Virus record (IMG/VR): IMGVR_UViG_3300042914_005059
Location: 1 to 64,000 of that record
Strand: one strand, 5' to 3'
Length of the DNA stretch: 64,000 nucleotides
Source of the DNA: a virus
Below the pieces are notes generated by a model that saw nothing but the letters and a program-made list of their open reading frames with translations, searched no databases and had not been told where the DNA came from. Shown piece by piece: positions 11,672 to 61,884 of the stretch. The translations under genes and the position numbers were made by a program. The first letter of the stretch is position 1, and each line of letters begins with the position of its first letter.

Positions 11672-11772
11672 AGGTCAATACCTTTCGTTTATGGGTCATC
11701 TCCAGCTTTGTACGAAGGGTTTAGCCGATGAAGGCTGCTGTCAATACCTTTCGTTTATGGGTCATCTCCAGC
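11671..11772 (-). CRISPR. CRISPR-like array A: 2 repeats, 1 spacer
   Basis: On the minus strand, repeat 1 (11772-11737) and repeat 2 (11706-11671) are 36 nt and match from GCTGGAGATGACCC through ATAAACGAAAGG to TATTGAC. Repeat 1 ends CAGC, which pairs with the GCTG at its start. Repeat 2 ends CCTG, so its end is degenerate. The spacer 11736-11707 is exactly 30 nt. Repeat 1 is the in-frame 3' end of the gene at 11721-12095, and the stop codon lies in the spacer. No cas gene is nearby. The layout equals that of array B at 46188-46289. Confidence 0.75.
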
Positions 11773-33774: not shown

Positions 33775-35259
33775 ATGAAAATAGAATTAACCTGCCAACA
33801 TTGTAATCAAAATTTTGAAACTGAATATAAATTTAGGGATAAAAAATTTTGTTCCAGAAATTGCTATTTTGAAAATGCTCGTCAAGGAAAGATAAAAATA
33901 GGCAGAAGTAAAGATAAAACCATAAGAGAAGAAAGAGAATGTAAAGTTTGTGGTACTAAGTTTGAAACTAAAAAAAATCATTTTAAACAATTATGTTCTG
34001 ATGAATGCCGTTTAGTTTGGGGAGAAAGAAAAGATGTTAAAGAAAAAAGATTACAAAACATAAAAAATACCGTAAAAGAAAAATACGGCGTTGACCATGT
34101 ATGGCAAGTAAAAAAAATTCACCAAAAAACAATAGATAACACTAACAAAGAATTATCGGTTAATAAACAAAAAGAAACTGTTCGTCAAAAAACTTTAAAA
34201 AATTTATTACCAAAGTTAGAATCTAATGGTTTAAAATTACTTTCTAATTATACGGCCAACAAAAATGGTAATACATCATTACCGTATGAATTTGAATGTT
34301 TAGCTTGTAATCATAAATTTACTAGTACTTTATTGGGTTGTGGAATAATACCAAGATGTGGTAAGTGCCATCCATCACAGAAAGATTCTAGGCCACAATT
34401 ATTTATACAAGAATTTTTAAATAATAACAACATTAAATATATTCAAAACAATAGAAAAATTATATATCCGTTTGAAATCGATTTTTATTTACCAGACCAT
34501 AATTTAGGTATTGAAATAAATGGTCTTTATTATCATGGTGAGCTTCTTGGTAAGGATAAAAATTATCATTTGAATAAATCAAAAATGACGGAAAAAATAA
34601 ATGTAAAATTAATCCATATTTTTGAGGATGAAATTGTTAATCAAAAAAATATTGTTTTATCTAAACTCTCCCATGAGTTAAAACTTTCAAATATTATTAA
34701 AATAGATGCTAGAAAGTGTGAAATAAAAAAGATATCAAATGAAGTTAAAATTAAATTTCTAGAAGAAAATCATTTACAAGGTGATGCAAAAGATAAAATA
34801 AGGTATGGTTTATTTTATAAAAACGAATTAGTTTCAATAATGACTTTTGGTAAAAGAAAAATAACAAAATCAAAAGAGTCTAATTGGGAATTGATTAGAT
34901 TTTGTAATAAAAGCTATCATTCAGTAAGAGGTGGGTTCAATAAACTACTAAATTATGTTTTAAAAAATGAGGGCATTAAAACTTTTATGACTTATTCTGA
35001 TTGTAGGTGGTCAGGGTTAAACCATGAAAAAACCGTTTACCATAAATGTGACATGAAATTTTTAGGCCTATCAAACCCCAATTATTGGTATTTTAAACCA
35101 TCTTCACAATTAAAAAGGCATCACCGTTTTAATTTTAGAAAAGCAAAATTAATATCAGAAGGTTTTGGTTCTAATAAAACTGAATGGCAAATTATGCAAG
35201 AAAGAGGCTTTGATAGAATCTGGGATTGTGGTAATATGAAATTTATTTATAAAAAATAA
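33775..35259 (+). CDS. EDxHD-like homing endonuclease with GNAT-like C-terminal domain, copy 1
   Basis: The 494-residue protein starts with two zinc-finger-like units (CQHCNQNFETEY...CSRNC and CKVCGTKF...CSDEC). A KEKYGVDHVWQV repeat of the kind seen in phage homing nucleases and a CLACNHKF/CGKC zinc ribbon follow. The nuclease core is FEIDFYLPDHNLGIEINGLYYHGE, then KNYHLNKSK and LIHIFEDE, typical of Vsr-fold EDxHD homing endonucleases. The last about 200 residues (GLFYKNELVSIMTFG, WELIRFCNKS, GGFNKLLNYVL, TYSDCRWSG) look like a GNAT fold. It sits directly behind the sheath gene, so it probably cuts sheath-region alleles that lack it. Confidence 0.85.
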   Translation: MKIELTCQHCNQNFETEYKFRDKKFCSRNCYFENARQGKIKIGRSKDKTIREERECKVCGTKFETKKNHFKQLCSDECRLVWGERKDVKEKRLQNIKNTVKEKYGVDHVWQVKKIHQKTIDNTNKELSVNKQKETVRQKTLKNLLPKLESNGLKLLSNYTANKNGNTSLPYEFECLACNHKFTSTLLGCGIIPRCGKCHPSQKDSRPQLFIQEFLNNNNIKYIQNNRKIIYPFEIDFYLPDHNLGIEINGLYYHGELLGKDKNYHLNKSKMTEKINVKLIHIFEDEIVNQKNIVLSKLSHELKLSNIIKIDARKCEIKKISNEVKIKFLEENHLQGDAKDKIRYGLFYKNELVSIMTFGKRKITKSKESNWELIRFCNKSYHSVRGGFNKLLNYVLKNEGIKTFMTYSDCRWSGLNHEKTVYHKCDMKFLGLSNPNYWYFKPSSQLKRHHRFNFRKAKLISEGFGSNKTEWQIMQERGFDRIWDCGNMKFIYKK

Positions 35260-39270: not shown

Positions 39271-40884
39271 TTATAGAAGATGGGTTTGGGGTTTCCAAAC
39301 CCATTTTTTATTGCCACAATCGTATATTCTGGGTATACCCCTTTCTTCCATTATTTGGTGTTCGGTTTTATTTTTGTCGTAACCTTCAGCAACTAAAACA
39401 TCTTTTCTAAAGTTATATCTATGGTACCTAATTCCGTTTATAACATAAAAATAAGACGGTTTCGAATACCCCTCATACTCAAACCCTAATACTTTATACA
39501 TATTACCATTAAAAAGCCTATTATCAGAAAAAGATAATATTTTTTTAGGGTCATACGTTTTTATAAAAGATTTAAATAACCTAGAAGCCCCACCTAAAAC
39601 ATTGTAATTTAACTTATTACAGAATCTTATCAACTCCCATTCACCTTCAACGTGTTTAGAACCTAAAGATTTTCTAAGCCTACCAAATGTCATCAATGAC
39701 ACTAATTCATCCTTATAATATAAACCTAACTTAACTGAAGAATTAACTTTTCCTTGAATATGGTTTTTATTTAAAAAATCATTATGTTCTTTATTGTCCA
39801 CCAATTTTATCTCACACTTTCTCGCATATATTACATTTTTACCATTAATCCCCAACCTATTTTTTATTAAAGAAGTTACAATGTCTTTTTTAACCTCCCA
39901 TTCATCTTGAAAGATTTGTATTAGATCAACATTTTTAGATTTACAATTTAAATACTTTTTTAAATGGTAATCTTTCTCAACAAAAAATTCATTATGCCAA
40001 TAAACACCATTATATTCTATTGCGATGTTTTTATTAGGAATAAAAACATCCAATTCTTTGGGGGATATTAAGGTTCTATCATTAAGCAAACAATTCCCAT
40101 CGGTTATCTCTGTTATTAATTTTTGTAATTCTTTTTCTTGAATAGAAACTGATTCATTTATTGGGTTACACAACGTACAAGGATTAACACCTACTAAAAC
40201 ACGATATCTAAAACTATTACGATGAATATCATAGTTTTTATTACATGTTTGGCAAAGAATATTTAAAGTATCACCAGTATGTGTTATAAAATTAAATTTA
40301 TCATATTTTTCAATAAAGTATTTTCTTCTAGTATCATGTGTTTTACCCAATACTTCTGGTGTTGATAGGATTGTTGTCTTTCCATATTTTTCCATGTTAG
40401 TTAACTTTTTTCTCTCAGTGACACCTTCAACTTTTGATACATGATCAACACCGTGATTTTTTATAAAGCCATTTTTTACTAATTCTAAATTTTGATATGT
40501 ATTTTCTACACCATACCTTTCTTTATTTGTTTTTTTGATTTTTTTTTGTGTTTCTTCAAATTTACCTAACCAAGTTTTTTTAGATTTTTCAATATGTTCT
40601 TTATTTTTATTAGTACAACTTAAAGAACAATATTTTCCGTATCCTTCTTTTAAACTTCTTTTAAAAATTAATTCTTTATTACATTCTGCACATTTTGGTA
40701 TTTCTGTATATTTATTAATAAAGTGCCAAACTTGTTGTTGAAAAGGTAAATAGTTTAAAGAATTATTTTCAATAAATTTTTTAACTTCTTCATAAATTTT
40801 TGGTTCTTTTTTGGATAATTTTTTTTCGTTGGTTTTCCAACCAGATTTATTATCCATAAAAAATAAAAAATATTCGTTTATCAT
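39271..40884 (-). CDS. EDxHD-like homing endonuclease with GNAT-like C-terminal domain, copy 2
   Basis: From ATG 40884 (MINEYFLFFMDNKSGWKTN) the product has 537 residues. There is a Cys cluster (CAECNKEL...CSLSC), several KYG-type DNA-contact repeats (ERYGVENTYQN, NHGVDHVSKV, KYGKTTILSTPE) and a zinc ribbon (CQTCNKNY...CTLC). The nuclease core is ELDVFIPNKNIAIEYNGVYWHN with LIQIFQDEW. The C-terminal GNAT-like domain runs GLYYKDELVSLMTFG, WELIRFCNKL, GASRLFKSFI, SFSDNRLFNG. It lies immediately before the tail tube gene on the opposite strand. Its last codons overlap the terminator hairpin of the converging gene. Confidence 0.85.
   Translation of the reverse strand: MINEYFLFFMDNKSGWKTNEKKLSKKEPKIYEEVKKFIENNSLNYLPFQQQVWHFINKYTEIPKCAECNKELIFKRSLKEGYGKYCSLSCTNKNKEHIEKSKKTWLGKFEETQKKIKKTNKERYGVENTYQNLELVKNGFIKNHGVDHVSKVEGVTERKKLTNMEKYGKTTILSTPEVLGKTHDTRRKYFIEKYDKFNFITHTGDTLNILCQTCNKNYDIHRNSFRYRVLVGVNPCTLCNPINESVSIQEKELQKLITEITDGNCLLNDRTLISPKELDVFIPNKNIAIEYNGVYWHNEFFVEKDYHLKKYLNCKSKNVDLIQIFQDEWEVKKDIVTSLIKNRLGINGKNVIYARKCEIKLVDNKEHNDFLNKNHIQGKVNSSVKLGLYYKDELVSLMTFGRLRKSLGSKHVEGEWELIRFCNKLNYNVLGGASRLFKSFIKTYDPKKILSFSDNRLFNGNMYKVLGFEYEGYSKPSYFYVINGIRYHRYNFRKDVLVAEGYDKNKTEHQIMEERGIPRIYDCGNKKWVWKPQTHLL
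39280..39309 (+). terminator. Terminator inside the 3' end of homing endonuclease copy 2
   Basis: A 10-bp stem (ATGGGTTTGG 39280-39289, CCAAACCCAT 39295-39304) with a 5-nt loop and T-run ends transcripts of the plus-strand gene at 36780-39257. It lies in the last codons of the convergent endonuclease gene. Confidence 0.85.
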
Positions 40885-40938
40885 ATATTTATAAGTATGA
40901 AACAAATATAATAATAATAAACTAAAAAACAATAAAAC

Positions 40939-41427
40939 ATGGCAGATTTATTAATGAGGATGCCCATTCCTTACGAACCAAAAAAACAGAATCGATTTAT
41001 TTTAAGATTCCCTTCTCCGCTTGGCATCCAGGAGTGGTATGTTAAATCAGCTTCTAGACCGAAATATACGGCACAAGAAACTGAAATCCAATTTCTTAAT
41101 ACTTCAACTTTTGTTACAGGTAGATTTAACTGGGAAACTATTAGTGTAACTTTTCGTGACCCGATTGGCCCTTCTGCGACTCAAGCTCTTATGGAATGGG
41201 TACGTTTACATTCGGAATCAGTAACAGGTAGACAAGGTTACGCTGCTGGATACAAGAAAGATGTTGAATTGGAAATGTTAGACCCAACCGGTGTTATCGT
41301 AGAAAAATGGATTCTTCAAGGAACCATGTTAAACGATGTTGATTTCGGTTCTTTAGCTTATGATTCCAACGATATTGCTGAAATAACAGCAACACTTCGT
41401 TTTGATCGTGCTATAAGCGTATTTTGA
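40939..41427 (+). CDS. gp19: Tail tube protein (T4 gp19-like)
   Basis: The 162-residue protein (T4 gp19 has 163) forms the inner tail tube around which the sheath packs. It begins ADLLMRMPIPYEPKKQNRFIL and has RFNWETISVTFRDPIGPSATQ and a C-terminal TATLRFDRAISVF. These are the beta strands of the tube fold, with the conserved YxxKxQNRF and WxxxxVTFRDPIGP patterns. Its partner sheath gene is 7 kb upstream, an unusual distance because sheath and tube are normally adjacent in T4-like phages. Two endonucleases and the internal-protein group have been inserted between them. Confidence 0.95.
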   Translation: MADLLMRMPIPYEPKKQNRFILRFPSPLGIQEWYVKSASRPKYTAQETEIQFLNTSTFVTGRFNWETISVTFRDPIGPSATQALMEWVRLHSESVTGRQGYAAGYKKDVELEMLDPTGVIVEKWILQGTMLNDVDFGSLAYDSNDIAEITATLRFDRAISVF

Positions 41428-41489: not shown

Positions 41490-41512
41490 ACTTGACAACC
41501 AACAAAAAGTCC

Positions 41513-41529
41513 GTATATTTATTAATAAA
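41513..41529 (+). promoter_or_regulatory. Phage-type promoter motif
   Basis: GTATATTTATTAATAAA lies 8 nt before the ATG at 41537. Confidence 0.5.
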
Positions 41530-41536
41530 TAAATGT

Positions 41537-43120
41537 ATGGACTTTTCTTTTTTTACAACAGATAATAAATCTGGTCACAAAACCAAAGAGGTGTGGTTTG
41601 CAAAAAATCACCCCCAAGAGTATGTTGATATAACATCTTATTGTCAACAACATTTAAAATCGGAATCTTCTTTTAAAGAAAAAATATGGTTCTATTTCAA
41701 GAATCTAACACAAAAACCAAAATGCCAATCTTGTAATACCGAAGTTAAATTTTCAGAAAGATTTGACAGAGGATATAATCAATTTTGTTCATTAGAATGT
41801 GCAAACAATAGTGGTTTATTAATTAATAAAATCAAAGAATCCAACTTAAAAAACCATGGTGTTGAGTTTTATACCCAACATAAAGACTTTATCAAAAAAC
41901 GTGATAAAACCAAAATCGAAACTTATGGTAATAAAAACTATAACAACACTGAAAAAATGTTACAAACAAAATCGAAGTTGTACGGAAATAAAAAATATAA
42001 CAATTTTGAAAAGTATAAAGAAACCTGTAATATAAAATATGGGGTTGATAACTTTGTTAAATCGGATGATTATAGAAATTTATTAAGTAATAAGGTTATT
42101 GAACGGTATCCAGAGTTAGAAATTAAAAAAATATCGACTGATTTATCTATGCTTCACATTAAATGTCATAAATGTGATGATGTATATTCTATAACACAAA
42201 ATTTATTACGAGAAAGAAAAAAACATAATTACGTTTTATGTACAAAATGTAATCCAATTGGCATGAGTTTTTCATCATCTTATGAAGATTCATTATGTTC
42301 TATATTAGATGATTGGGGTGTAGAATATGAAAGACATAATAAAATACCTAATTCTTCTCTTGAAATTGATATTTATATTCCATCTATAAAAACTGCCATT
42401 GAATTTGATGGAATTTATTGGCATAATGAATTATATCTTACCAATGATTACCATTTGGTAAAAACTAATTTATGTAAAAAATCTAACATCGAATTAATTC
42501 ATATTTTCGAAGATGAATGGTTGTTTAAACAAGAAACTGTTTTATCTATATTAAAAAATAAACTCAAGTTAATTTCAAACAAAATATATTCTAGAAATTG
42601 TGAAATAAAAAAGGTTACGTCAAACGAAAGTAACCTTTTTTTATCCGAAAACCATATACAAGGAAATGTCTCTTCTACGGTTAAAATTGGGTTATATTAT
42701 AAAGACGAATTAGTTTCTTTAATGACTTTTGGTAAAAGAAATGGTGTTGGTAATAACACTGATTGGGAATTAATTAGATTTTGTAATAAGAAAAATACGA
42801 TTGTGGTGGGAGCGGCCTCCAAACTATTTAATTTTTTTATTAAAAATTTTAAAGTTAAAAAAATCATATCTTACTCAGACAATCGTTGGTTTACTGGTGG
42901 TGTTTACACAAAACTAGGGTTTAATAATTGTGGGTCGACAAAACCAAATTATTGGTATGTACATAACGGTATTAGATATCATAGATTAAATTTTAAAAAA
43001 TCTGTGTTGGTTAAACAGGGTTTTGATAGAAATAAAACAGAAAAAGAAATAATGTTTAATCGTAAAATATATCGTATTTACGATTGTGGTAACATAAGAT
43101 GGGAGTTTTCTAATCAGTAA
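41537..43120 (+). CDS. EDxHD-like homing endonuclease with GNAT-like C-terminal domain, copy 3
   Basis: I start at ATG 41537 (MDFSFFTTDNKSGHKTKE), because the longer frame crosses the promoter motif. The 527-residue protein has a CQSCNTEV...CSLEC zinc unit and NHGVEFYTQHKD and KYGVDNFVKS repeats. A CHKCDDVY/CTKC ribbon and the core LEIDIYIPSIKTAIEFDGIY-WHNE with ELIHIFEDEW follow. The GNAT-like end has GLYYKDELVSLMTFG, WELIRFCNKK, GAASKLFNFFI and SYSDNRWFTGGVY. It is directly behind the tail tube gene. Core residues are intact, so it is probably active. Confidence 0.87.
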   Translation: MDFSFFTTDNKSGHKTKEVWFAKNHPQEYVDITSYCQQHLKSESSFKEKIWFYFKNLTQKPKCQSCNTEVKFSERFDRGYNQFCSLECANNSGLLINKIKESNLKNHGVEFYTQHKDFIKKRDKTKIETYGNKNYNNTEKMLQTKSKLYGNKKYNNFEKYKETCNIKYGVDNFVKSDDYRNLLSNKVIERYPELEIKKISTDLSMLHIKCHKCDDVYSITQNLLRERKKHNYVLCTKCNPIGMSFSSSYEDSLCSILDDWGVEYERHNKIPNSSLEIDIYIPSIKTAIEFDGIYWHNELYLTNDYHLVKTNLCKKSNIELIHIFEDEWLFKQETVLSILKNKLKLISNKIYSRNCEIKKVTSNESNLFLSENHIQGNVSSTVKIGLYYKDELVSLMTFGKRNGVGNNTDWELIRFCNKKNTIVVGAASKLFNFFIKNFKVKKIISYSDNRWFTGGVYTKLGFNNCGSTKPNYWYVHNGIRYHRLNFKKSVLVKQGFDRNKTEKEIMFNRKIYRIYDCGNIRWEFSNQ

Positions 43121-45497: not shown

Positions 45498-45868
45498 TGA
45501 AAGGGCAATTATTAATTAATTTTATAACCCTACAAGAACAATTTAGGGTTTTACACTGGCAAACAAAATCTTTTGCCAGACATAAAGCTTACGGTGAAAT
45601 CTATGGTGCTTTTAATGAACTTATCGATGACTTTGTTGAAGTTTACATGGGGAAATATGGTCGTGTTGAATTCACTTCAGGTGAAGGTACCATTGTTTTA
45701 AAAAATACCAATGATTTAGGTTTAAATGAATTTTTAAATCAAAATTTAGAATTCTTAATGTCTTTAAGTAATTCTTTGGATCCACAAAAAGATTCTGATT
45801 TGTTAAACATCAGAGATGAAATGATGAGTCAGATAAATAAATTAAAATATCTTTTAACTTTAAAATGA
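45497..45868 (+). CDS. Dps/ferritin-like small protein
   Basis: The 123-residue protein starts MKGQLLINFITLQEQFRVLHWQT and continues KSFARHKAYGEIYGAFNELIDDFVE. The pattern of His20, His29, Asp44/Asp45 and Glu48 follows the Dps-type ferroxidase site with its HWxT helix. In phages, short Dps-like proteins of this kind occur without a defined role. They may bind iron or DNA and protect against oxidation. Helices follow in the C-terminal half. The gene starts at the last base of the caspase-like gene and its stop overlaps the next ATG by 4 nt. Confidence 0.72.
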   Translation: MKGQLLINFITLQEQFRVLHWQTKSFARHKAYGEIYGAFNELIDDFVEVYMGKYGRVEFTSGEGTIVLKNTNDLGLNEFLNQNLEFLMSLSNSLDPQKDSDLLNIRDEMMSQINKLKYLLTLK

Positions 45869-46242
45869 AAAACCTTATAAGAAAAATATTAAAAGAAGAA
45901 TTTGATGATTTTGGTTGGGCAGAAGAATTGGTTGGTAACACCAAACAATTTTCACCCGCTGAAGAATTTTTGTATGAAATCATGTCAAACTTAAAGGCGG
46001 TTCCTTCAAAAAATTATCCAGGTTTAATGTTATATAAGGATAAAAGCGGGCTTACTTTAATGGCGGATAGTGTGGATAGTGATGAAAAAAATCCTTATTT
46101 ATGGGTTGATTATCGTCAAATTTGGTTAAAATTACGTCAAGAATTTGGCCTTAATGGACAAGAAATCAGTAATTTATGCGTGCGTATGCTGGAAATGACC
46201 CATAAACGAAAGGTATTGACAGCTCAATCGGACTTTGATTGA
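45865..46242 (+). CDS. Array-linked small protein, copy B
   Basis: The 125-residue product begins MKNLIRKILKEEFDDFGW (CTS-like helix, ILKE-E) and has the conserved domain FLYEIMSNLKAVPS, MLYKDKSGLTL, PYLWVDYRQIW and a last helix ending LCVRMLEMTHKRKVLTA. It is over 80% identical to copies A and C by eye. The 36-nt repeat at 46188 encodes its end and translation stops inside spacer 1 with AQSDFD. It is the last gene of the operon starting at 43757. The start overlaps the Dps-like gene by 4 nt. The function of the domain is unknown. Confidence 0.75.
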   Translation: MKNLIRKILKEEFDDFGWAEELVGNTKQFSPAEEFLYEIMSNLKAVPSKNYPGLMLYKDKSGLTLMADSVDSDEKNPYLWVDYRQIWLKLRQEFGLNGQEISNLCVRMLEMTHKRKVLTAQSDFD

Positions 46243-46302: not shown

Positions 46303-46674
46303 ATGAAAAACCTTATAAGAAAAATATTAAAAGAAGAATTTGATGATTTTGATTGGGCTGAAGAATTGGTTGGTAATACTAAACAATTTTCCCCCGCTGA
46401 AGAATTTCTTTATGAAATTATGTCCAATTTAAAGGTGGTTCCTTCGGAAAATAATCCAGGTTTAATGTTATATAAGGATAAAAGCGGGGTTACTTTAATG
46501 GTGGATGATGCGGATAGAGATAAAAAAAAACCTTATTTATTAGTTGATTATGATAAAATTTGGAGAAAATTAAATCAAGAATTTCGTCTTAATGAACAAG
46601 AAATCAAAGACTTATGCGTGCGTATGCTGGAGATGACCCATAAACGAAAGGTATTTACAACAGAAACAACGTAA
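46303..46674 (+). CDS. Array-linked small protein, copy C
   Basis: The 123-residue product is a close paralogue of copies A and B: MKNLIRKILKEEFDDFDW, FLYEIMSNLKVVPS, MLYKDKSGVTL, PYLLVDYDKIW and LCVRMLEMTHKRKVFTT. The first repeat of array C (46626-46661) is its 3' end, and the stop TAA lies in the first spacer with tail ETT. Differences from copy B are scattered and often silent, consistent with a recent tandem duplication. The V-F-T-T coding change in the repeat is also present in the non-coding repeats that follow. Confidence 0.75.
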   Translation: MKNLIRKILKEEFDDFDWAEELVGNTKQFSPAEEFLYEIMSNLKVVPSENNPGLMLYKDKSGVTLMVDDADRDKKKPYLLVDYDKIWRKLNQEFRLNEQEIKDLCVRMLEMTHKRKVFTTETT

Positions 46675-47882: not shown

Positions 47883-49157
47883 ATGAAAAAATTAATTCAT
47901 AAAATTCTGTTACAAGAGGCTTTAAAACCATCCCAATTTAGAAATTACGTTAAAAACTTTAATCGTGAAAGATATGTAGATATTTTTAAAAAATTAGGTG
48001 ATGAATTTGAACACGATAGAAATTATTATCGTATTTACATACCATTAGGAAAAAAAGAAAAATCTGGCCCTGTTTCTAACGTTGAAAAAGAAGTTACCGA
48101 TTTTTTAACTAAAAATGGTTATCAAGTTTTAGACTACATCAAAGGTATTACTAAATTTGGTGATGCCAAAAATACAACCTCTATCGGTAAAGTGTTAACA
48201 AGATTAAAAGCCGATGATTTAATGAAAAAATTTGTTTCCGATGAAGCAAGAAAAGCTTTAACCTCTGATATCGATAATTTAATGGTTGTTATTTCTCGCC
48301 ATCCTTATGATATTGCAGGTTCTGATACCGATAGAAATTGGACTAATTGTATGACAATAGGTCACGCTAGTTCCAAGCGGGTTGAGACGTTACATAACCA
48401 GTTGAACTCCTTAAATGATAAATTAAGTTCTTTACAAAAAGAAGACCCAAATTATGTTAATATTTTAAAAAAAATAAAAAATTTAAAATCTGAAATTGAG
48501 GACAGAAAAGAAGAAGGTCAAAACGTTAAATATTTAATCCATGAAGTTAAAGAAGGTTCTTTAATTTCTTATTTAATCAATAAAAATGATAAAAATATCA
48601 ATAACCCTTTAGCTGTATTAAATATTAAACCATATATAAACGAAAAAAATCCTGATGATTTTGTTTTGGTGTCTAGTAATGAAATGTATGGAAATGGTAG
48701 GCCTGAATTTAAATCTACAGTCAATTCTATTTTAGAAAAAATTAACGGGGATGTTACTGGTCTTTATTGTATAAACCCAAAAACATATAAAGATTCAGAT
48801 TCAGAAAAAATCTATGTACCCACCAAGGAAGAAAAAGAATTAAGATACAAATTTTTGTATGAAATCATGTCCAATTTAAAGGCGGTTCCTTCAAAAAAAT
48901 ACCCAGGTTGGATGGAGTATAAGGATGAAAGTGGGGTTATTTTAATGGCGGATAATGTGGATAGAGATGAAAAAAAACCTTATTTATGGGTTGATTATGA
49001 TGAAATTTGGTTAAAATTAAATCAAAAATTTGGTCTTAACTATCAAGAAATCGAAGCCTTATGCGTGCGTATACTGGAAATGGTTCATAAACGAAAGGTG
49101 CTGACAGCAGGTCTCTCTCGACGAGGATTTTCTTCGAACACTGGAAATGGTTCATAA
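47883..49157 (+). CDS. Chimeric array-linked protein, copy D
   Basis: The 424-residue protein begins MKKLIHKILLQEALKPSQF (CTS-like, ILLQE-A). Residues about 50-320 form a separate domain with ISRHPYDIAGSDTDRNWTNC near residue 138 and LIHEVKEGSLISYLI, a pattern I have seen in T4-like phage proteins of unknown function. From residue 324 the chain is the array-linked domain (FLYEIMSNLKAVPS, MEYKDESGVIL, PYLWVDYDEIW, LCVRILEMVHKRKVLTA). The last part continues through repeat 1, a spacer and into repeat 2 before stopping (tail SSNTGNGS). It is a fusion of a large protein with the small family. Confidence 0.7.
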   Translation: MKKLIHKILLQEALKPSQFRNYVKNFNRERYVDIFKKLGDEFEHDRNYYRIYIPLGKKEKSGPVSNVEKEVTDFLTKNGYQVLDYIKGITKFGDAKNTTSIGKVLTRLKADDLMKKFVSDEARKALTSDIDNLMVVISRHPYDIAGSDTDRNWTNCMTIGHASSKRVETLHNQLNSLNDKLSSLQKEDPNYVNILKKIKNLKSEIEDRKEEGQNVKYLIHEVKEGSLISYLINKNDKNINNPLAVLNIKPYINEKNPDDFVLVSSNEMYGNGRPEFKSTVNSILEKINGDVTGLYCINPKTYKDSDSEKIYVPTKEEKELRYKFLYEIMSNLKAVPSKKYPGWMEYKDESGVILMADNVDRDEKKPYLWVDYDEIWLKLNQKFGLNYQEIEALCVRILEMVHKRKVLTAGLSRRGFSSNTGNGS

Positions 49158-50782: not shown

Positions 50783-52576
50783 TTATAAAAAAACCCATTT
50801 TTTATTACCACAATCATATATCCTATATATTTTTCTTTCTAACATGATTTGGTGTTCTGTTTTATTCGAATCATAACCCTCTTTAACTAAAATATCTTTA
50901 CGATATTTAAACCTATGTTCTCTATTTAATTTTTTAACATAAAAATAGTTTGGTTCTGTATTTGAAACAAATTTAAATCCTAGTTTTTCATACAAATCTC
51001 CATTGAAATATCTTCTATCTGAATAAGATATAACTTCTTTTGGTTGGTAATTATTTAAAAAAAATTTAAATAATTTATTTGCACCACCTATAACATTAGT
51101 ATTCAGTTTATTACAAAACCTTAACATTTCATATGTACCATTTTTTTCTTTAAAACCTAAAGATTTCCTTAACCCACCAAAGGACATTATAGAAACTAAT
51201 TCTTCACCACGGAATAATCCTAATTTAATTTTGGCATTAACATAACCCTGTATGTGATTTTTAATACAAAAATCTTTATATTCTTCTAGTGAAATATTTC
51301 TAACTTCACATTTTCTTGCGTATATTTTATTTGGTGTTAAATTTAACTTGTTTTTTATTATTGACAGTACTATTTCTTTTTTAAACAACCATTCATCTTC
51401 AAATATGTGAATAAGTTCAACACCTTCTTTTTCACACAATTTAGTTTTATTTAAGTGATATTTTTTATCACAATGTAATTCATTATGCCAATATATTCCG
51501 TTAAACTCTATAGCAAGATTGTTATCAGGAAATAATAAATCTAATTCTAAACCTTTTAATAGTTTTCTATTGTTTTTTTCAATATTAATATTTTCTTTTT
51601 CTAATATGTTAAACAAATCCATTTCTGGTGAACTATAAAACGTTCCGTAGGGGTTACAGTTGGTACAAATTATTTTATCATCATTACCTCTCATCACCAT
51701 AAAATGTCTGTTAATGTTAGTTTCTTTTTCACATTTTTTACAAAAAATATTACAAAAATCCCCTTCAATTTTATTTACAATAATATCACTACCGTATTTA
51801 TATTTAGATAAACAATTTTCTAATTTTTTTCTGGATATTTTTATCCTAATATCAGGACTTTTTAAAATATTATCAACACCGTATCTATCTAAACTAGTTT
51901 GTTTGTATTTTTCAATATTATTGTAATTTTCGTCATCATAACGATTTAATTTTGTTTTTTTGGTTTTTAATAAAGTGACATCCCAGTTATTATTTTTAAT
52001 TAAATTATCAATAGTTTTTTTATGTATAACGCTTGATTGTAACCCATGTTCAACTCCATGACGTTCTATCATTGTTTTTTTAGTTTTGTCCTGAATCTTT
52101 TTTGAGTTTAAAGGCCTTTTAACACCGTATTTATCTAAATTAGTTTTTTCGATTTTTTCTTTAACAATATTTGAACTAAGGGCATGTTCTGTGCCATATT
52201 TTTCCAAATTAGTTTTTTTAGTTTTTTCTTTTATTAAACTATTAGTCATTGGGTGCCCTCCGTATTTTTTTTCAAAAGTCTCTTTAGTTTTTTTTTTAAT
52301 ATCTGGATCTGATGACTTGCACTCTAAAGAACAATAGGTTCGATAACCTTTTTTTATATTTTCAAATTTAGTTTCGTTACCACATATTTTACAGTTTTTA
52401 CATTCTGATTTGTTTATATAAGACCAAACTTTTTCTTTAAAAGGTTTATTTATGTTTTTTTCTGTGGCATAAGTAATTATTTCATTATATAACTTTTGAT
52501 TTACATTTTTTAATGTTTTTTCTTTTAATAAAGAACCGTTTTTACTAGATAAAAAATAATTTAATAAATTTTCCAT
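50783..52576 (-). CDS. EDxHD-like homing endonuclease with GNAT-like C-terminal domain, copy 4
   Basis: The largest of the four, 597 residues. After the N-terminal helix and a CKICGNET...CSLEC unit it has at least six tandem DNA-contact repeats: KYGGHPMTNS, KYGTEHALSS, KYGVKRPLNS, RHGVEHGLQS, RYDDENYNNI and RYGVDNILKS. They are about 20-30 residues apart and each is preceded by a Lys-Thr-rich helix. A zinc ribbon (CKKCEKET...CTNC) and the nuclease core LELDLLFPDNNLAIEFNGIY-WHNE with LIHIFEDEW follow. The GNAT-like part has GLFRGEELVSIMSFG, GGANKLFKFFL and SYSDRRYFNGDLYEKLGF. It lies before the gp26-like gene on the opposite strand. Confidence 0.87.
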   Translation of the reverse strand: MENLLNYFLSSKNGSLLKEKTLKNVNQKLYNEIITYATEKNINKPFKEKVWSYINKSECKNCKICGNETKFENIKKGYRTYCSLECKSSDPDIKKKTKETFEKKYGGHPMTNSLIKEKTKKTNLEKYGTEHALSSNIVKEKIEKTNLDKYGVKRPLNSKKIQDKTKKTMIERHGVEHGLQSSVIHKKTIDNLIKNNNWDVTLLKTKKTKLNRYDDENYNNIEKYKQTSLDRYGVDNILKSPDIRIKISRKKLENCLSKYKYGSDIIVNKIEGDFCNIFCKKCEKETNINRHFMVMRGNDDKIICTNCNPYGTFYSSPEMDLFNILEKENINIEKNNRKLLKGLELDLLFPDNNLAIEFNGIYWHNELHCDKKYHLNKTKLCEKEGVELIHIFEDEWLFKKEIVLSIIKNKLNLTPNKIYARKCEVRNISLEEYKDFCIKNHIQGYVNAKIKLGLFRGEELVSIMSFGGLRKSLGFKEKNGTYEMLRFCNKLNTNVIGGANKLFKFFLNNYQPKEVISYSDRRYFNGDLYEKLGFKFVSNTEPNYFYVKKLNREHRFKYRKDILVKEGYDSNKTEHQIMLERKIYRIYDCGNKKWVFL

Positions 52577-52699: not shown

Positions 52700-53470
52700 A
52701 TGTCAAAACAACAACCACAAGAATTTCAAATTCAAGCTCCATTCGATGTCATTCCATTGCCCTCAAAAGGTCTTTTCTATCCAGGTCAAAACGGTATGGT
52801 AAAAGTTGAATACCTTACAGCCATGGACGAAAACATCTTAACTTCTCAAAACTTAATTAAAAGTGGAAAGGTTTTGGAATACCTTTTAGAAAGAAAAATT
52901 AAAGAATCACCAGTTCCTGTTGATGACCTTTTGGTTGGTGATAGAAACGCAATTATGATTTGGTTACGTGCAACTGGTTATGGTGAAATGTATCCAGTTA
53001 AACTAACAGACCCAGGAAGTGGTGTCGAATTTGATTATGAAATTAATCTAAGTGAACTACAAAATAAAGAACTACCTGATGGCGTTGAACCAGATGAAAG
53101 AGGTGAGTTTTCTTTTGAATTACCAAAAAGTAAGAAAAAAATTAAGTTTAAATTATTAACTGTTGGTGATGAAAAGTCTATTTTAAATCGTGCAGAAAAA
53201 TACGAGAAAGCAACTAAATCACAAATTTCAAATGTTTTAACTTATAGATTACAAGCACAAATTAAAGAAATTGATGGTAACCGTGATATTAATTATATCC
53301 AACAATTTGTTAATATGATGCCAGCTTTTGATTCTCTTAAATTTAGAGAATATTCCGATTCTATTGAACCAGGTATAAATATGTCGGTCGAGGTGGAGGG
53401 ACCGACAGGTACCTTTCAAGCTCCAGTTACCATCGGACTCAACTTTTTTTGGCCTAACGTTAGAGTATAG
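52700..53470 (+). CDS. gp26: gp26-like baseplate/tail-assembly protein
   Basis: The 256-residue protein resembles the T4 baseplate gp26 family: it starts with FDVIPLPSKGLFYPG, has YLTAMDENILTSQNLIKSGK, LLVGDRNAIMIWLRATGYG, and MPAFDSLKFREYSDSIEPG. Proteins of this group act in assembly of the central baseplate hub or as tail assembly chaperones. The 3' end contains a T7 run (53444-53450), after which the +1 frame stays open through the small ORF at 53499. A programmed frameshift could therefore make a longer form. The normal frame ends FFWPNVRV. Confidence 0.85.
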   Translation: MSKQQPQEFQIQAPFDVIPLPSKGLFYPGQNGMVKVEYLTAMDENILTSQNLIKSGKVLEYLLERKIKESPVPVDDLLVGDRNAIMIWLRATGYGEMYPVKLTDPGSGVEFDYEINLSELQNKELPDGVEPDERGEFSFELPKSKKKIKFKLLTVGDEKSILNRAEKYEKATKSQISNVLTYRLQAQIKEIDGNRDINYIQQFVNMMPAFDSLKFREYSDSIEPGINMSVEVEGPTGTFQAPVTIGLNFFWPNVRV

Positions 53471-53498
53471 TATCGCCCTTAGGAGGGAGATTTATTAT
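53444..53498 (+). other. Candidate +1/-2 programmed frameshift region
   Basis: In the zero frame, codons AAC-TTT-TTT-TGG precede the stop at 53468. Shifting +1 (or -2) at the seven-T run gives an open frame with 16 stop-free codons (GLTLEYSIALRREIYY) that joins the 47-residue ORF at 53499 in phase. The -1 frame meets a stop at once (GCC-TAA). AGGAGG at 53481-53486 is the only strong Shine-Dalgarno-like sequence seen in the window and may help internal start or pausing. Confidence 0.5.
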
Positions 53499-53642
53499 AT
53501 GGTTAAACATATGAGATTTTCTTACGAAGCGGTTTTGTCAATACCAATTTGGGAACGTCGTGTTTATCTTGATTTATGGCAAAAAGAACTAGAGGAACAA
53601 AAACAGGAATACGATAAAATAAAATCAAAAAGTAAAAGATAA
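53499..53642 (+). CDS. Small tail-assembly ORF (gp51-like or frameshift extension)
   Basis: The 47-residue ORF MVKHMRFSYEAVLSIPIWER is followed by RVYLDLWQKELEEQKQEYD and a basic tail. The pattern FSYEAVLxxPxWERRVYxxLW occurs in short proteins next to tail assembly chaperone genes. AGGAGG lies 12 nt upstream of the ATG, exceptional in a genome that mostly lacks Shine-Dalgarno sites. It may be translated alone or as a +1 frameshift extension of the gp26-like gene. Gene order (26 then a small gene, then tape measure) fits T4 26-51. It precedes a terminator. Confidence 0.65.
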   Translation: MVKHMRFSYEAVLSIPIWERRVYLDLWQKELEEQKQEYDKIKSKSKR

Positions 53643-54946: not shown

Positions 54947-57637
54947 ATGGCAGATAATTTCGAATCCAATTTAGACGACCAAAGGGAACGCCTCAAGGTA
55001 CAAAAACAAATTAATGAGGCTATTAAGGAAAACGTTAATAGCTTTGGTGATCTAGGTAAGTATAGTAAAACCATTGTTGATAATTTTAAAGATTTACAAG
55101 AAGCTAATGTTAGAATTAAAGAAAATCAAAAAAGAATTTTAGAACTTCAAAAAGAAAATACCACTCAGTCTTTACAACAAGCAGCTTATTTAGAACAGGA
55201 AAATTTACAATTAAGTAAAAAAAGAAAACAACTTCAAGAAATAAATAAAGAATTAGCTAAGAAAGCGCCGTTAGCGGCAGGTAAAGCTCTTCTTGGGTTT
55301 CTTGGTGATTCCCTTACAAAATATTTAGAATTTGATCAAAAAGCACGTGACGTTGCCGCACAAATAGGTCTTGGTGGTCAAAGAATGCAAATCATGCGAG
55401 ATAACGTTATTTCTGCAGGTATTGAAATGCAGAAATACGGTGTTTCCACAACGGAAGCTTTGGAGGCACAACAAGCATATTCTGATGAATTAGGACGTGC
55501 GGTTATTTTAAGTAGTGAAGCATTGACCAATATGGCCAGAATCGGAAAAGCAACTGGTCTAGGGATGCAAGGTATGGCAGCTTTAACCGCCGAGATGGAA
55601 GCTTTTGGTTTGGGCGCGGAACAAGCAACAGAATTTATTTTTGAAATGCAGTCCTCTTCGGCTCAAATGGGTCTTAATTCTGCAAAAGTTATTAAAAGTT
55701 TTCAAAGTAATTTAGGTCTTTTAAATAAATTAAATTTTAAAGCTGGAGTTAAAGGTCTGGAACAAATGGCGAAATACTCCGAAAAGTTTAAACTTAGTAT
55801 GCAATCTGTTGCCGCGGTGGCAGATAAAGTATTCAGACCTGAAGGTGCTATTGAAGCTGCGGCACAATTACAAGTTTTAGGTGGAAGTTTGGCCGCATTG
55901 GGTGACCCTTTTCAGTTATTGTATAAAGCTAGAAATGCACCTGAAGAATTAACAAAACAATTAGCGGAAGCGGCTGCCGCAACTGCAACTTTTAACGCTA
56001 AAACTGGTGAGTTTGAAGTTAGTGCATACGAATTAGATAGATTAAAAGAGGCCGCAAACGCTCTTGGATTGAGTTATGATGAATTAGCTCAATCTGCCAA
56101 ACAAACCGCAAAAATATCTCGTTTTGAAAATATGTTAAGTGGTAAAGGTTTGGACCCAGAACAAAAAGAGGCTCTTGCCATGATGGCCCAGGTAAGTAAA
56201 GACGGAAAGGCTCAAATACAAATGGGTTTCACTCCCGATGGTAAAGCTAACATGAAAGACCTTAAATCTTTATCGGGGACACAATTGTTAGAAGCTTTGG
56301 AACAGAAAAAACAAGCAGAAGAGGCGGCACAACAAGCAACTGGTGTTAAAGAACAATGGGAAAACTTATTTAATCAATTTGTTTTAGCAACCTATCCGTT
56401 ATTAGAAGATTTGATGAAAGTTTTTAAACCAGCTGCTGACGGAATTTCTACCAAAATGACGGAATTTATTACAGGTATATCTGATTTTGTTAAAGGTGTT
56501 GCACCGTTTTTTGTGTGGTTAGGGAAATTTGTTGCCTCAGCTCCAGAACTTACTTTAGGTTTAATTGCTTTTGCTAAAAGTGGATTGGCGAGTGCTGTTT
56601 TTTGGGCAGTAAAGTCACTTTTTTTAGGAAAAGTAATAACATCAGCTATGACCACTGGAGGTCAAATTGCTGCCGGAGAAATTGCTGCAGCAATGGCAGG
56701 AAAAGGTGTGGTCGGTGGTATTCCTGGTGGGGGAGCTCCCGGTGGTACACCACCTCCTGCCGGTGGTCAATCAGGGGGGGTGTTAAGCCAGTTGTCACAA
56801 ATAAAACCAACACAAATTTTAGCAACTGCAGTAGCTTTAGTTGCCATAGGTGCCGCTATATGGTTAGTTGCTGACGGTATGTCACATTTAACTTTAGCCT
56901 TTAAAGAACTTAATGGTCCACAAGCTTTAGGTGCTGTCGCAGGAATAGCTGTGATTATGGGTGGTTTTGTAGCTATGTTATATGCCATGGCTGGGGCTAC
57001 AGGTGTTTTAGCTATGGTCGCTAGTGCTGGTTCCGGTCCGTTAATAGCTTTTGGTTTTTCAATGTTAATGATTGGTGGGGCTATTGCAATAGCCGCATTA
57101 GGGTTTTCAGTACTAGTAGATTCTTTCACTAAGATGTTTGCAGTAATCGGACCAAACGGTGACAGTATTATGAAAGCTGGTGCTGGTTTTTTTATGATGG
57201 CAGCTGGTTTAGGTGTCTTAGCTTTCGCTCTAGTTGCTTTGTCTGCTTCTGCCTTATTAGCAGTTGTTGGTCTTGGGGTTATTTTAGGTTTAACCACCGC
57301 AATAGTTTCTGCAACAACTTCTTTAAGTAATGTTGGTGGAGCGGAAGGTATTGTTAAAGTAGTAAATGCAATTAACTCTCTTGATACTGAAAAATTAGAC
57401 GCAATACAATCACTATCAAATTGGATGGCATTATTAGGTGGGACAACAACTATTAAATTTGATGAGAGTTTGGAAATAGATGGAGAAATTGTTATTAAAG
57501 GTGAATCAGGCGGTAGAAAAAATACCGACTGGATCAATGACCCCGATTTTATCTCAAATCTAAAAGATAAAATTATTGGAAAAAGTTACGCAGATAGAAA
57601 TGGTGGAAAAATTGGTGCTTATAATAAATTTGCTTAA
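54947..57637 (+). CDS. Tape measure protein
   Basis: The 896-residue protein sets tail length and is carried inside the tube. The first about 110 residues are coiled coil (QRERLKVQKQINEAIKEN, LQEINKELAKKAP). The long helical middle has TGLGMQGMAALTAEMEAF and AAQLQVLGGSLAALGDP. The C-terminal third has several hydrophobic helices (LSQIKPTQILATAVALVAIGAA, LGAVAGIAVIMGGFVAMLYAM, FFMMAAGLGVLAFALVALSA) that may cross the host membrane on injection. A Gly/Pro-rich linker (GGAPGGTPPPAGGQ) separates the two parts. Length and place, between tail-assembly and baseplate genes, fit T4 gp29-like proteins. Confidence 0.85.
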   Translation: MADNFESNLDDQRERLKVQKQINEAIKENVNSFGDLGKYSKTIVDNFKDLQEANVRIKENQKRILELQKENTTQSLQQAAYLEQENLQLSKKRKQLQEINKELAKKAPLAAGKALLGFLGDSLTKYLEFDQKARDVAAQIGLGGQRMQIMRDNVISAGIEMQKYGVSTTEALEAQQAYSDELGRAVILSSEALTNMARIGKATGLGMQGMAALTAEMEAFGLGAEQATEFIFEMQSSSAQMGLNSAKVIKSFQSNLGLLNKLNFKAGVKGLEQMAKYSEKFKLSMQSVAAVADKVFRPEGAIEAAAQLQVLGGSLAALGDPFQLLYKARNAPEELTKQLAEAAAATATFNAKTGEFEVSAYELDRLKEAANALGLSYDELAQSAKQTAKISRFENMLSGKGLDPEQKEALAMMAQVSKDGKAQIQMGFTPDGKANMKDLKSLSGTQLLEALEQKKQAEEAAQQATGVKEQWENLFNQFVLATYPLLEDLMKVFKPAADGISTKMTEFITGISDFVKGVAPFFVWLGKFVASAPELTLGLIAFAKSGLASAVFWAVKSLFLGKVITSAMTTGGQIAAGEIAAAMAGKGVVGGIPGGGAPGGTPPPAGGQSGGVLSQLSQIKPTQILATAVALVAIGAAIWLVADGMSHLTLAFKELNGPQALGAVAGIAVIMGGFVAMLYAMAGATGVLAMVASAGSGPLIAFGFSMLMIGGAIAIAALGFSVLVDSFTKMFAVIGPNGDSIMKAGAGFFMMAAGLGVLAFALVALSASALLAVVGLGVILGLTTAIVSATTSLSNVGGAEGIVKVVNAINSLDTEKLDAIQSLSNWMALLGGTTTIKFDESLEIDGEIVIKGESGGRKNTDWINDPDFISNLKDKIIGKSYADRNGGKIGAYNKFA

Positions 57638-57753: not shown

Positions 57754-60700
57754 ATGCCAATTAACCCGTTTAATTATAATATAGATTATTTTGATAGTGT
57801 TCCTTTTGGGCCTATTACTGATAGTAATTTTTTAAATTATTTATTTACACATAATTTACAAAATTTAGACCCTTCCATTAGCAATGTTCTAGGAATCACA
57901 ACACCAATACAAGGTGGTCGTGGGCAAGAATATGATGTCGCACAATCAACTTTTACAACCGTTGATGTCCCAGATTTATTAGAAGTTTCAAATACGTCTT
58001 CAGAGTACAATAATTTTACCAATCCATTGGACGATAATTTGGCCAAAAACCCTTCTTTTAATGAGTTGGCGACTTGGTATCCAGATTATGCTTTGATTTA
58101 TTTAAACGAAACTGATACTTATAAAACGCTATACGGTGTACCAACGACATTGCAGTTAGGTTTTGTTGGTAACGTTGAAACTTATATCCAAAACGGTGTA
58201 ACCACAAATGTTTCAACTGAGTTAATAGAAAATAGTAAAAAAGAAAACAAATACGGGCCAAACGCTTTGGTTGCTTATGACACAATATCTGATGAAATTT
58301 TAATAAGGCCAGATACTGGTTTAATACAGTACAATACAGGAATACAAGGTGATTTTAGAGATGAGATTTTTAATCGTACATTAGGTGTTGGTATTATACC
58401 TTTTAGTACCATAGGTTCAGGTATTAATTACAAACCTGACGGTCAAAACATATCTGAATTAGATAGGATTGCGAGAGAAAGACGTGGTTTTGAAGCTAGG
58501 GAAAGGGTTAGAATAAATTTTATCGATGACACTGTTGGTACGTTAAATTTGGATCCACTTAATTTATTAGCTGGTGGTCCGTTAATACAAAGAGATTTCA
58601 CGATAACCAGACCTGCAAATTTTATTGGGAGAGCGGCAGAATTTTTGGCAGGTCTAAACGGATTTAGTATTCCAACAAGTATTCTACAGGATTTTGATTT
58701 TAATCTAAGTATTTTCAATAAAGACGGTAGTTTAAGTAATCAAGCTGACCCAAAAAATATTAATGAGATAGATGTTAAATCTAGTTTACTAAATAGAACA
58801 GGGCAAGCAACCAGAGAGATTTTATTTGATAATATTAAAAACAATAAATATGGGCCTAATTTTGAAGGAGATTATGAAACTAAAAATAAAGACACTTATT
58901 TAAATTCATCGGAAGAAAAAATTTTAGAAAGTAAAGAACAAGATATATATGGTGGTTTTTATGGTAGATTTGAACTATATAATGCTGTAGGTAAAACACT
59001 CACATCGGATTTTAACGGTAATGTACCATTTTACGATGATAAAGATAAAAATTTAACCACATATAATGGTACATCTGTTGAACAAGACAGAGATATAACA
59101 ATTAGCGTTACAGACGAAAGGTTTGATTGGAGAGCAAGAGAAGATAAAATTAACACATTTAATAGAGGCCTTTTAAAATATACACAAAATTTAGTTAATA
59201 AATCTAAATTAGGTGACGCAGCCGGATTTATTGGTTATTTTGATTCAGAAGGTAATAATGATACAGGTCCTTTAGCTTTAAAAAACGGAACACATCAAAC
59301 GGGAGTTTCAGCACCATACAGTAAACCAGAGAGGCCTTCAAAAGGAAATGTTACCAGAAATTATGATTTCACAAATAATAGTGGAGGTGATTATTATTGT
59401 CGTTCTTGGTCTTCTCGTAGAAAATATCACACTAGAGATAATTTAATAAGAAAAAGTGGCAATTGGTGGCGAGGTCAAGAAAAAAATAAAAATATGACAA
59501 TGAATTGGGGTGACAACCCTATCGGTTCCCCAAAAATTGCATTTGAAAAAGAAGATAAAGAAGATATTATATCATTAGATAGAAATAATAAAAACCTTAA
59601 AGGAGCAGCAATTCCTTATATGTTTTCAATAGAGAATTTGGCGTGGAAGGATGCACCACAATTTTATGAATTACCAGAATGTGAAATAGGCCCTAACGGT
59701 GGTAGGATTATGTGGTTCCCACCTTATAATATCAATTTTAGTGAAAGCAATAGTGTTAATTGGGAAGGAACTTCTTTTATTGGTCGTGGTGAAAACATAT
59801 ACACATACAATAATACCGAAAGAGGTGGTAGTTTGGATTTCACGATAATAGTTGATCATCCTACTGTTTTAAACCAACTTAGAAAGAGTTTTAGTGATAG
59901 ATTAAGTGACGAATCTCTGCATTCATTTTTTGCTGGATGTGATTTAGATACGTTAAGAAGTTTATTAAATTCTAACGGTAGTCAACAGATACGAACAGAA
60001 GCACAACCAGGTAATGAATCAAAAACAACACCTTGTGATGTTACACCACCACCTTATAATGAGATAAAAATATATTTTGAAAACTCTAGAAACGCAAGCT
60101 CCGATATTGGTAGAGTAGTGGATTTAACAACATACGAAGTTACATCACCAAACATTGCTCCAGAAGGTATTAACCAAAGTGAATGGGCTTCTAACGGTTC
60201 CTTATATCCTTGTGGTCCGGCATCGGCAAATACATATAACTATTTAAATAAAGGTATTGAAAATATTTTAACAGGGTTAACAGAGTTTTTGGTTACCGAA
60301 GATGGTAAAAATTATAAAATAAAAATTATAGGATACACATCACCAGACAACCCAACAAGTACTTACAATAAAGATTTGGCTGAAGCTAGAGCCACAAACA
60401 CAAAAAATTATTTATTACAAAAATTAGTCACAAAGGAAAAGGAATTGGGCGGCCCATTCCCTTTATATGGGAACTCAAATTATCCGTCTTATCCTTCAGA
60501 AGAAAGTTTAGTAAATAGTACTGACCGTTGGGAAGTTAGAGGAGAACCAAATCCCGATTCTCAAAATTTAACCGGAAACATAATATACGGTAATCCTTGT
60601 GATGTTTTAGATCCAAATGACCCAAATTCAAAAACATCAAAAGAACAAAGATACGTTTTAATAACACTGGAAGAAAATAAAGCATTACAAAATAATCTAT

Positions 60701-61884
60701 TACAAGTAATTACAAAAGATAACAAAAAAGTTGCTATTGACAATGTACAAAATGAAAGAGGTGCTTTAATAAATCAGTTTGCACAAGAATATATTACTGA
60801 ATGTGAATATTTTGAGGCCATAAAAAGAGACGCTCCTTTTATTTATACTTCATTACAAGATAAAATTAAAAACTTTCATCCTGCTTTTCACTCTATGACA
60901 CCAGAGGGTCTTAATAGTAGGTTAACATTTTTAAATCAATGTACTAGACAGGGGCCTCAAATAATAAATGAAAAAATATCACAAAACATGGTATTTGGTA
61001 GACCCCCTATTTGTGTTTTAAGAATTGGTGATTTTTATAATACTAAAATCGTTATAGATTCTATTAATATTAATTATGAACCATTACAATGGGATCTAAA
61101 TCCTGAAGGTATTGGGGTCCAACCAATGATAGCAAAGGTTACCATGAGTTTTAAGTTTGTTGGTGGTTCTTCATTAGGTGGCCCAATAAAACAATTACAA
61201 AACGCTGTTTCTTATAATTTTTACGCAAATACAGGTGTTTATCAACCTTGGAAATATACCGAAAAATTGCTTGATTACAAAAATAAATTTATTTATGGAG
61301 CTTTCATGACACCAAAAGATGCAGAAACCGCATATGGAAATATAAATACAAATTTAGGTACCACAGAAACTAAAGCCACAGAACAAAACTTACAAAGTGT
61401 TAATACAACGGCTAATGGGACAAATGCTGGAGCTTCGTCAGATGTTACTTCTGCAACACAAGCAGGAATGCCAACTAGTACTAATAATGCAACACCCATA
61501 ACAACTTCAGATCCTTCAGATGACATTTTAGCAATTATAATTGATGAGGAGAATAATTTTTCCGCCAATTTAACACCAGATGGTGATGATAATTGGTCTA
61601 TATCTAAATTTACTATAGAAACAACGTTAAAAAATGGCCCATTTATTATTGATAGAACTATCACAGAATTAAATTCTAATATTACAGGTTATGAAATATC
61701 AAATATTGAGTTGAATCAAATAATTGTAACTGAAATTATAAATAGAAAATTAACTTACGTTAATAATGAAAAACTTAGTCTTACTTATAATGTTGTTATA
61801 ACAAATAAAACAACTACTAGTGCTAATAAATCATATATTAAAAACGGTGAAATAATTTTACAACCAAAAACATTAAACGTATAA
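57754..61884 (+). CDS. Large baseplate/tail protein with OmpA-like domain (1376 aa)
   Basis: It follows the tape measure and is followed by a gp53-like gene, so it is a baseplate or tail-hub component. Around residues 830-930 it has an OmpA-like peptidoglycan-binding signature: KIKIIGYTSPDNPTSTYNKD, then LAEARATNTKNYLL. The C-terminal section near residues 1070-1170 (RIGDFYNTKIVIDSININYE, VQPMIAKVTMSFKFVGGSSLGG, LQNAVSYNFYANTGVYQP) resembles proteins linking tube and baseplate. The last 200 residues are Thr/Asn-rich. The OmpA-like part may bind host cell wall during penetration. That is inference. Confidence 0.65.
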   Translation: MPINPFNYNIDYFDSVPFGPITDSNFLNYLFTHNLQNLDPSISNVLGITTPIQGGRGQEYDVAQSTFTTVDVPDLLEVSNTSSEYNNFTNPLDDNLAKNPSFNELATWYPDYALIYLNETDTYKTLYGVPTTLQLGFVGNVETYIQNGVTTNVSTELIENSKKENKYGPNALVAYDTISDEILIRPDTGLIQYNTGIQGDFRDEIFNRTLGVGIIPFSTIGSGINYKPDGQNISELDRIARERRGFEARERVRINFIDDTVGTLNLDPLNLLAGGPLIQRDFTITRPANFIGRAAEFLAGLNGFSIPTSILQDFDFNLSIFNKDGSLSNQADPKNINEIDVKSSLLNRTGQATREILFDNIKNNKYGPNFEGDYETKNKDTYLNSSEEKILESKEQDIYGGFYGRFELYNAVGKTLTSDFNGNVPFYDDKDKNLTTYNGTSVEQDRDITISVTDERFDWRAREDKINTFNRGLLKYTQNLVNKSKLGDAAGFIGYFDSEGNNDTGPLALKNGTHQTGVSAPYSKPERPSKGNVTRNYDFTNNSGGDYYCRSWSSRRKYHTRDNLIRKSGNWWRGQEKNKNMTMNWGDNPIGSPKIAFEKEDKEDIISLDRNNKNLKGAAIPYMFSIENLAWKDAPQFYELPECEIGPNGGRIMWFPPYNINFSESNSVNWEGTSFIGRGENIYTYNNTERGGSLDFTIIVDHPTVLNQLRKSFSDRLSDESLHSFFAGCDLDTLRSLLNSNGSQQIRTEAQPGNESKTTPCDVTPPPYNEIKIYFENSRNASSDIGRVVDLTTYEVTSPNIAPEGINQSEWASNGSLYPCGPASANTYNYLNKGIENILTGLTEFLVTEDGKNYKIKIIGYTSPDNPTSTYNKDLAEARATNTKNYLLQKLVTKEKELGGPFPLYGNSNYPSYPSEESLVNSTDRWEVRGEPNPDSQNLTGNIIYGNPCDVLDPNDPNSKTSKEQRYVLITLEENKALQNNLLQVITKDNKKVAIDNVQNERGALINQFAQEYITECEYFEAIKRDAPFIYTSLQDKIKNFHPAFHSMTPEGLNSRLTFLNQCTRQGPQIINEKISQNMVFGRPPICVLRIGDFYNTKIVIDSININYEPLQWDLNPEGIGVQPMIAKVTMSFKFVGGSSLGGPIKQLQNAVSYNFYANTGVYQPWKYTEKLLDYKNKFIYGAFMTPKDAETAYGNINTNLGTTETKATEQNLQSVNTTANGTNAGASSDVTSATQAGMPTSTNNATPITTSDPSDDILAIIIDEENNFSANLTPDGDDNWSISKFTIETTLKNGPFIIDRTITELNSNITGYEISNIELNQIIVTEIINRKLTYVNNEKLSLTYNVVITNKTTTSANKSYIKNGEIILQPKTLNV

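Follow-up and report, generated by a model that had tools for sequence, protein, structure and literature searches.

The tail gene region of a T4-related myovirus carries a tail assembly chaperone locus that, judged from sequence conservation among its relatives, is very probably expressed by programmed +1 ribosomal frameshifting, with one gene yielding both a short and a long form of the protein. The window, meaning the whole stretch of 64,000 nucleotides that we analyzed, comes from an IMG/VR record of 69.8 kb (IMGVR_UViG_3300042914_005059) with a G+C content of 32%. The features relevant to the argument are as follows.

30912–33671: tail sheath gene
40939–41427, + strand: tail tube protein gene (phrog_4542, E = 8e-25)
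52700–53470, + strand: short form, gp26-like tail assembly chaperone (TAC-N), 256 aa, PF12322 (T4_baseplate)
53444–53450, + strand: predicted slip site TTT TTT T(GG), with zero-frame codons TTT (53444–53446) and TTT (53447–53449) and A-site codon TGG
53451–53642, + strand: T extension in the +1 frame, from GGC at 53451 to the stop codon TAA at 53640–53642 (open frame, T-profile match)
53468–53470, + strand: short-form stop codon TAG, read from the sequence, which the frameshift would bypass
53481–53501, + strand: AGGAGGG plus ATG seen in the sequence, a possible extra, unconserved start for the T domain by itself
54947–57637, + strand: probable tape measure gene, 896 aa, assigned by position and length only

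The gp26-like gene and its surroundings

The protein encoded at 52700–53470 matches PF12322 (E = 5.3e-11; 43.1 bits against a cut-off of 24.5) and phrog_150, labeled baseplate hub (E = 3e-13). Its AlphaFold2 model has a pLDDT of 89, and the viral structures matched by this fold include gp26-type proteins. The two best PDB matches are to the HK97 chaperone 2OB9, with E values of 1.9 and 2.8 that are not significant, and a sequence search of the PDB found no relative. We infer by analogy that the gp26-like protein would serve as a chaperone.

The locus lies between the tail tube gene upstream and the probable tape measure gene downstream, with other genes intervening. In the isolates Immuto, LIS04, and SP-15, the corresponding locus sits directly between the tail tube and tape measure genes. 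Family searches with the protein from 54947–57637 gave no match; the gene that follows the chaperone locus is annotated as tape measure in Immuto and LIS04.

HNH/homing endonuclease genes and genes for DUF7487 proteins, one of which has a Mom-like domain, are interspersed among the tail genes of the window (33775–35259, 41492–43120, and, on the − strand, 39271–40932 and 50783–52576), and such genes separate the tail tube gene from the chaperone locus. Farther downstream, 57754–61884 encodes a 1376-aa tail/baseplate-region protein with an OmpA-like domain near residue 850 that scores just under the Pfam cut-off. A shared N-terminal stretch (MKNLIRKILKEEF and variants) recurs in short ORFs at 11313–11657 and 11721–12095 (both − strand), 45865–46242, 46303–46674, and 47883–49157; three of these ORFs closely duplicate one another, and a portion of one is found again in the C-terminal part of the 424-aa ORF at 47883. 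This stretch is perhaps a targeting signal for the particle. A search for tRNA genes in the window found none.

At the junction of interest, the gp26-like frame reads CTC AAC TTT TTT TGG CCT. The initial annotation had pointed to a run of seven Ts near the end of the gene followed by a +1 frame that enters a 47-aa ORF in phase, and direct reading agrees: the run occupies 53444–53450, and no stop interrupts the +1 frame between 53451 and its TAA at 53640–53642, the ATG at 53499 being passed in phase. The −1 frame closes at once (TTG GCC TAA), as had also been noted, and thus the −1 mode of lambda and cyanophage-type loci does not occur here. Based on nucleotide composition, an open stretch of this kind is expected by chance at about 6% of loci, and therefore a single locus means little.

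Conservation of the phase and of the site

Relatives were collected by searching viral contigs with the upstream protein and nothing else, a procedure blind to the phase of the second domain. The first scan gave 29 loci with a readable junction, and the downstream domain was in the +1 phase in all of them. An alignment-based scan returned at least 597 relatives, of which the best 80 were fetched, and scans with four distant members added brought the collection to 303 loci carrying the upstream gene. Among these loci, which do not count as independent events because their genomes are related, the T domain is in the +1 phase in 201 (199 by profile; L034 and L122 by eye) and in the −1 phase in 92 by profile plus L118 (Atu_ph07) by eye. 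The −1 set takes in three loci (L213, L219, and L123) whose T ORF begins at or just after the stop codon with its own start, and we treated these as separate genes.

At a clustering threshold of 90% identity, the +1 loci collapsed into 132 representatives, in which both phase and site are conserved. The site is TTT TTT in 118, TTT CTT in six, TTC TTT in five, and CTT TTT, TTT CTA, or TTT TTC in one each. A T or C follows TTT TTT in 117 of the 118. The site of L096 reads TTT TTT CGT, the pattern of its neighbors. Nearly all members have TGG, TAC, or CGN in the A site. The +1 frame is open in every one of the 118 TTT TTT representatives, compared with 23 and none for the other two frames, and the isolates Immuto, Mel-JY01, SP-15, and LIS04 share the phase. 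The comparison of phase and slippery run in homologues suggested by the initial annotation is therefore strongly positive. A stop codon between the run and the small ORF in the +1 frame, which had been named as contrary evidence, is seen in no +1-phase relative, and relatives that lack the +1 phase use another mode, either a −1 slip site or a start codon belonging to the small ORF.

The nucleotides just ahead of the run are also biased. Among the 118 representatives, the base preceding T6 is C in 58, G in 41, A in 18, and T in one. For the codon before T6 the NNC:NNT ratio is 58:1, compared with 2249:10036 elsewhere in the same genes (Fisher p = 1.5e-41 with kinship ignored, to be read as a strong bias and not as a probability). 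A T at this position would create the −1 heptamer U UUU UUU. Because the position precedes the slip, the bias does not arise from coding of the extension.

Whether the +1 frame is entered by a +1 or a −2 slip had been left undecided by the initial annotation. Relatives with TTC TTT N or TTT CTN at the site tip our results toward a forward slip. At 132 of 132 sites, tRNA-Phe in the P site on one of the two codons can move one base ahead and pair with UUU or UUC. A programmed −2 frameshift, as in Mu, would reach the same frame with one extra Phe in the product, and at the sites of 120 of the 132 representatives, among them that of the window, T6–T7 lets tRNA-Phe shift back by two bases and pair again. 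The T7 of the window permits both movements, so for this locus it is the relatives that favor +1 over −2. In 12 of the 132, however, re-pairing of tRNA-Phe two bases back is impossible, the firmest cases being the five TTC TTT sites, at which the tRNA would meet UCU, and the Mu-type mode thus fails to hold across members; for the TTT CTT members a −2 slip of tRNA-Leu is conceivable. Taken together, a −2 slip appears improbable.

A T domain translated as a separate gene from the ATG at 53499, behind AGGAGGG and without any frameshift, is less probable still. The window does have the Shine–Dalgarno (SD) sequence and the ATG, and the T ORFs of L213 and L219 do have their own ATG. However, a relative 86% identical to the window (L004) has TTA in place of this ATG, another (L003) lacks the AGGAGGG, 65 of the 118 representatives have no ATG, GTG, or TTG within the first 20 codons of the T extension, and only seven of the 118 have a start codon preceded by an SD core. 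Moreover, homology reaches past the ATG as far back as the slip site. When the clade of the window is left out of the T profile, the +1 frame of the window matches it with E = 2e-17 from the first residue supplied (position 53454), so homology of the T domain starts right after the T-run. Note that the claim of homology upstream of the ATG draws on the alignment of the whole domain, because the 15 residues ahead of the ATG score only 5.9 bits by themselves. Independent translation would also leave unexplained the conserved T6 and the avoidance of a preceding T. Therefore, the 47-aa ORF (53499–53642), which the initial annotation named as a small ORF, is not a separate small gene but part of the T extension that contains it, given a conserved domain that begins straight after the slip site and an unconserved ATG. 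The start at 53499 may nevertheless add a short product in the window.

Other searches concerned the T domain. The T extension of the window matches phrog_634, labeled baseplate hub assembly catalyst (E = 8.5e-5), as do six of 12 T domains examined (best E = 6.1e-8). A tblastn search of phages with the 47-aa ORF alone gave no match, and its relatives emerged only via the upstream protein. Between the stop codon and the ATG, substitutions in the window clade number 7, 6, and 10 at the three codon positions, too few to decide. The T domain (53454–53639) also resembles Pfam DUF6760 below the cut-off (2.7e-4 here, 2.1e-5 for the best relative), a resemblance by which the members of DUF6760 may include C-terminal domains of tail chaperones.

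Transcriptional slippage on the T-run, in which mixed mRNAs would give the long form, draws on the fact that the site is a T6–T7 homopolymer in most members. At least 12 representatives without T6 (TTTCTTTGG, TTCTTTTGG, TTCTTTCGT, and TTTCTATTC) keep the phase, which argues against it, and a −1 sub-clade has A AAU UUC, a tandem-tRNA site with no run. We regard this alternative as very unlikely, about as much so as the separate gene. Finally, a sequencing or assembly error in the homopolymer, the first of which the initial annotation had raised as giving the same picture, is refuted, its probability being negligible, because 132 representatives, many of them from diverged contigs, and isolate genomes share the phase, including at sites without a long run.

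Backward slips, separate starts, and the T4 arrangement

Programmed +1 frameshifting at this site, our preferred reading, would resemble that of the bacterial prfB gene (RF2) in that a P-site tRNA slips +1 onto an overlapping U-rich codon. It differs in having no A-site stop codon, no consistent SD sequence 3 nt upstream, and UUU rather than CUU in most members, and PMC5009743 reports that, in the prfB context, UUU_U supports +1 slipping less well than CUU_U does. Our search for stimulators of the slip yielded no stop codon, consistent SD sequence, or strong conserved structure. RNA structure just downstream of the site is too weak to count (mean z of −0.9, versus about −0.3 to −0.6 elsewhere), an Rfam search returned sub-threshold chance matches only, and no prfB-like upstream SD is consistent among the relatives. 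A Gly codon GGG at −12 is enriched (37 of 70 vs 92 of 1309), with a spacing that departs from the 3-nt rule and an occurrence far from universal.

Among the relatives, site and phase change together. Cyanophage-type loci (e.g., Synechococcus phage S-CAM22) share the gene order, the two domains, and a T6 slip site in the same place, but their T domain is in the −1 phase behind nnT TTT TTC, the canonical U UUU UUC. Upstream, GAGGG occurs at a fixed distance in 59 of 79 such −1 loci, close to the spacing of about 10 nt known for −1 stimulation (PMC5009743). In a second group, the L090 sub-clade, the T domain is also in the −1 phase, and A AAT TTC is present in 7 of 7 distinct junctions. This sub-clade is nested within the +1 clade with a support of 99 in a quick tree with SH-aLRT values only, in which the distant long branches are unsure. 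If an Asn codon stands before the Phe pair, the +1 representatives always have AAC (30 of 30) and the sub-clade always has AAT (7 of 7). In L213 and L219, sisters of the Immuto lineage, the T ORF has its own ATG just past the stop codon and the TTT codons are lost. The −1 heptamers of the −1 relatives and this loss establish the covariation.

Two gp26-type genes of jumbo phages, L035 (LR756511.1) and L118 (Agrobacterium phage Atu_ph07), have a T6C site followed by an open −1 frame, and their extensions are annotated as separate hypothetical proteins or left unannotated. From their sequences, these are further candidates for −1 frameshifting.

The two domains are equivalent to those of T4 gp26 and gp51. 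PF12322 spans gp26 nearly end to end and covers residues 1–201 of the 249 residues of gp51, and a search of 76 ORFs with either the cyanophage or the combined T profile gives the C terminus of gp51 as the best match (E = 1.6e-5 and 3.6e-5, respectively); T profiles built from +1 loci only do not clearly find it. By these profiles gp26 corresponds to the short form and gp51 to the short form plus a C-terminal T domain, so T4 carries both forms as two genes. The difference is that T4 has separate, divergently oriented genes, whereas here there is one gene plus a predicted frameshift. A search for a second PF12322 gene with a T domain found the single short-form match in the 69.8-kb record, which is a fragment and in which a distant copy could be missed.

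Lambda G/GT and P2 E/E′ likewise produce short and long chaperones from one gene adjoining the tape measure gene, but do so by a −1 slip and with a protein family unrelated by sequence. The +1 frame is also reached in the tail chaperone genes of the myoviruses Mu (by −2) and HSTV-2 (very likely by +1) (PMC5009743), which we liken to this locus by description and not by sequence; Mu differs in using −2.

Proposed expression and its meaning

That ribosomes slip at this site, at a rate that would favor the short form, and by +1 rather than −2 in this phage, we infer from the comparison of genomes. Most ribosomes would make the 256-aa gp26-like form. In a minority, peptidyl-tRNA-Phe positioned on either UUU within UUU UUU U(GG) would shift forward by one base and re-pair with UUU (UUC in many relatives); these ribosomes would bypass the TAG and produce a long form of about 313 aa carrying the T domain. 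If the division of labor in lambda G/GT (PMC5009743) applies here as well, attachment to the tape measure protein would fall to the short form and recruitment of tube subunits to the T domain; the tape measure protein would then carry a coat of many short copies and few long ones that would bring in the tube subunits.

A broader interpretation, toward which we lean slightly, is that stop-independent +1 frameshifting is widespread in T4-like phages at UUU_UUU_Y, that synonymous codon choice around one and the same Phe-Phe pair determines which way the ribosome slips, that the direction has switched at least once in the family, and that the one-gene frameshift and the T4 two-gene layout are alternative solutions. 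Under this rule AAC TTT TTT would direct a +1 slip, and AAT TTC TTC (A AAU UUC) and nnT TTT TTC would direct −1 slips.

Frameshifting in tail genes is already known in phages. A passage of PMC12846349 that cites Vladimirov et al. (2022) describes poly-T −1 signals in T4-like TAC genes, and one in PMC10274946 citing the same work (Vladimirov, Gautam, and Davidson 2022) describes some T4-like phages with separate short and long genes. The literature we searched, which comprised sources other than Vladimirov et al. (2022) itself, contains no account of a +1 slip in the T4-like group. The +1 class is therefore probably new for this group, for which the forward direction and the sequence rule look new.

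One consequence concerns annotation, as the T domain is labeled a separate hypothetical protein in Immuto, Mel-JY01, and SP-15 and is unannotated in LIS04. The family also offers a natural experiment: the apparent direction of slipping is opposite at sites whose differences are largely synonymous, which makes the rules governing +1 versus −1 movement directly testable. PMC5009743 describes tail-chaperone frameshifting as conserved, with T4 as the exception, and +1 and −1 frameshifting at the same place in many T4-like relatives would bridge this exception and the rule.
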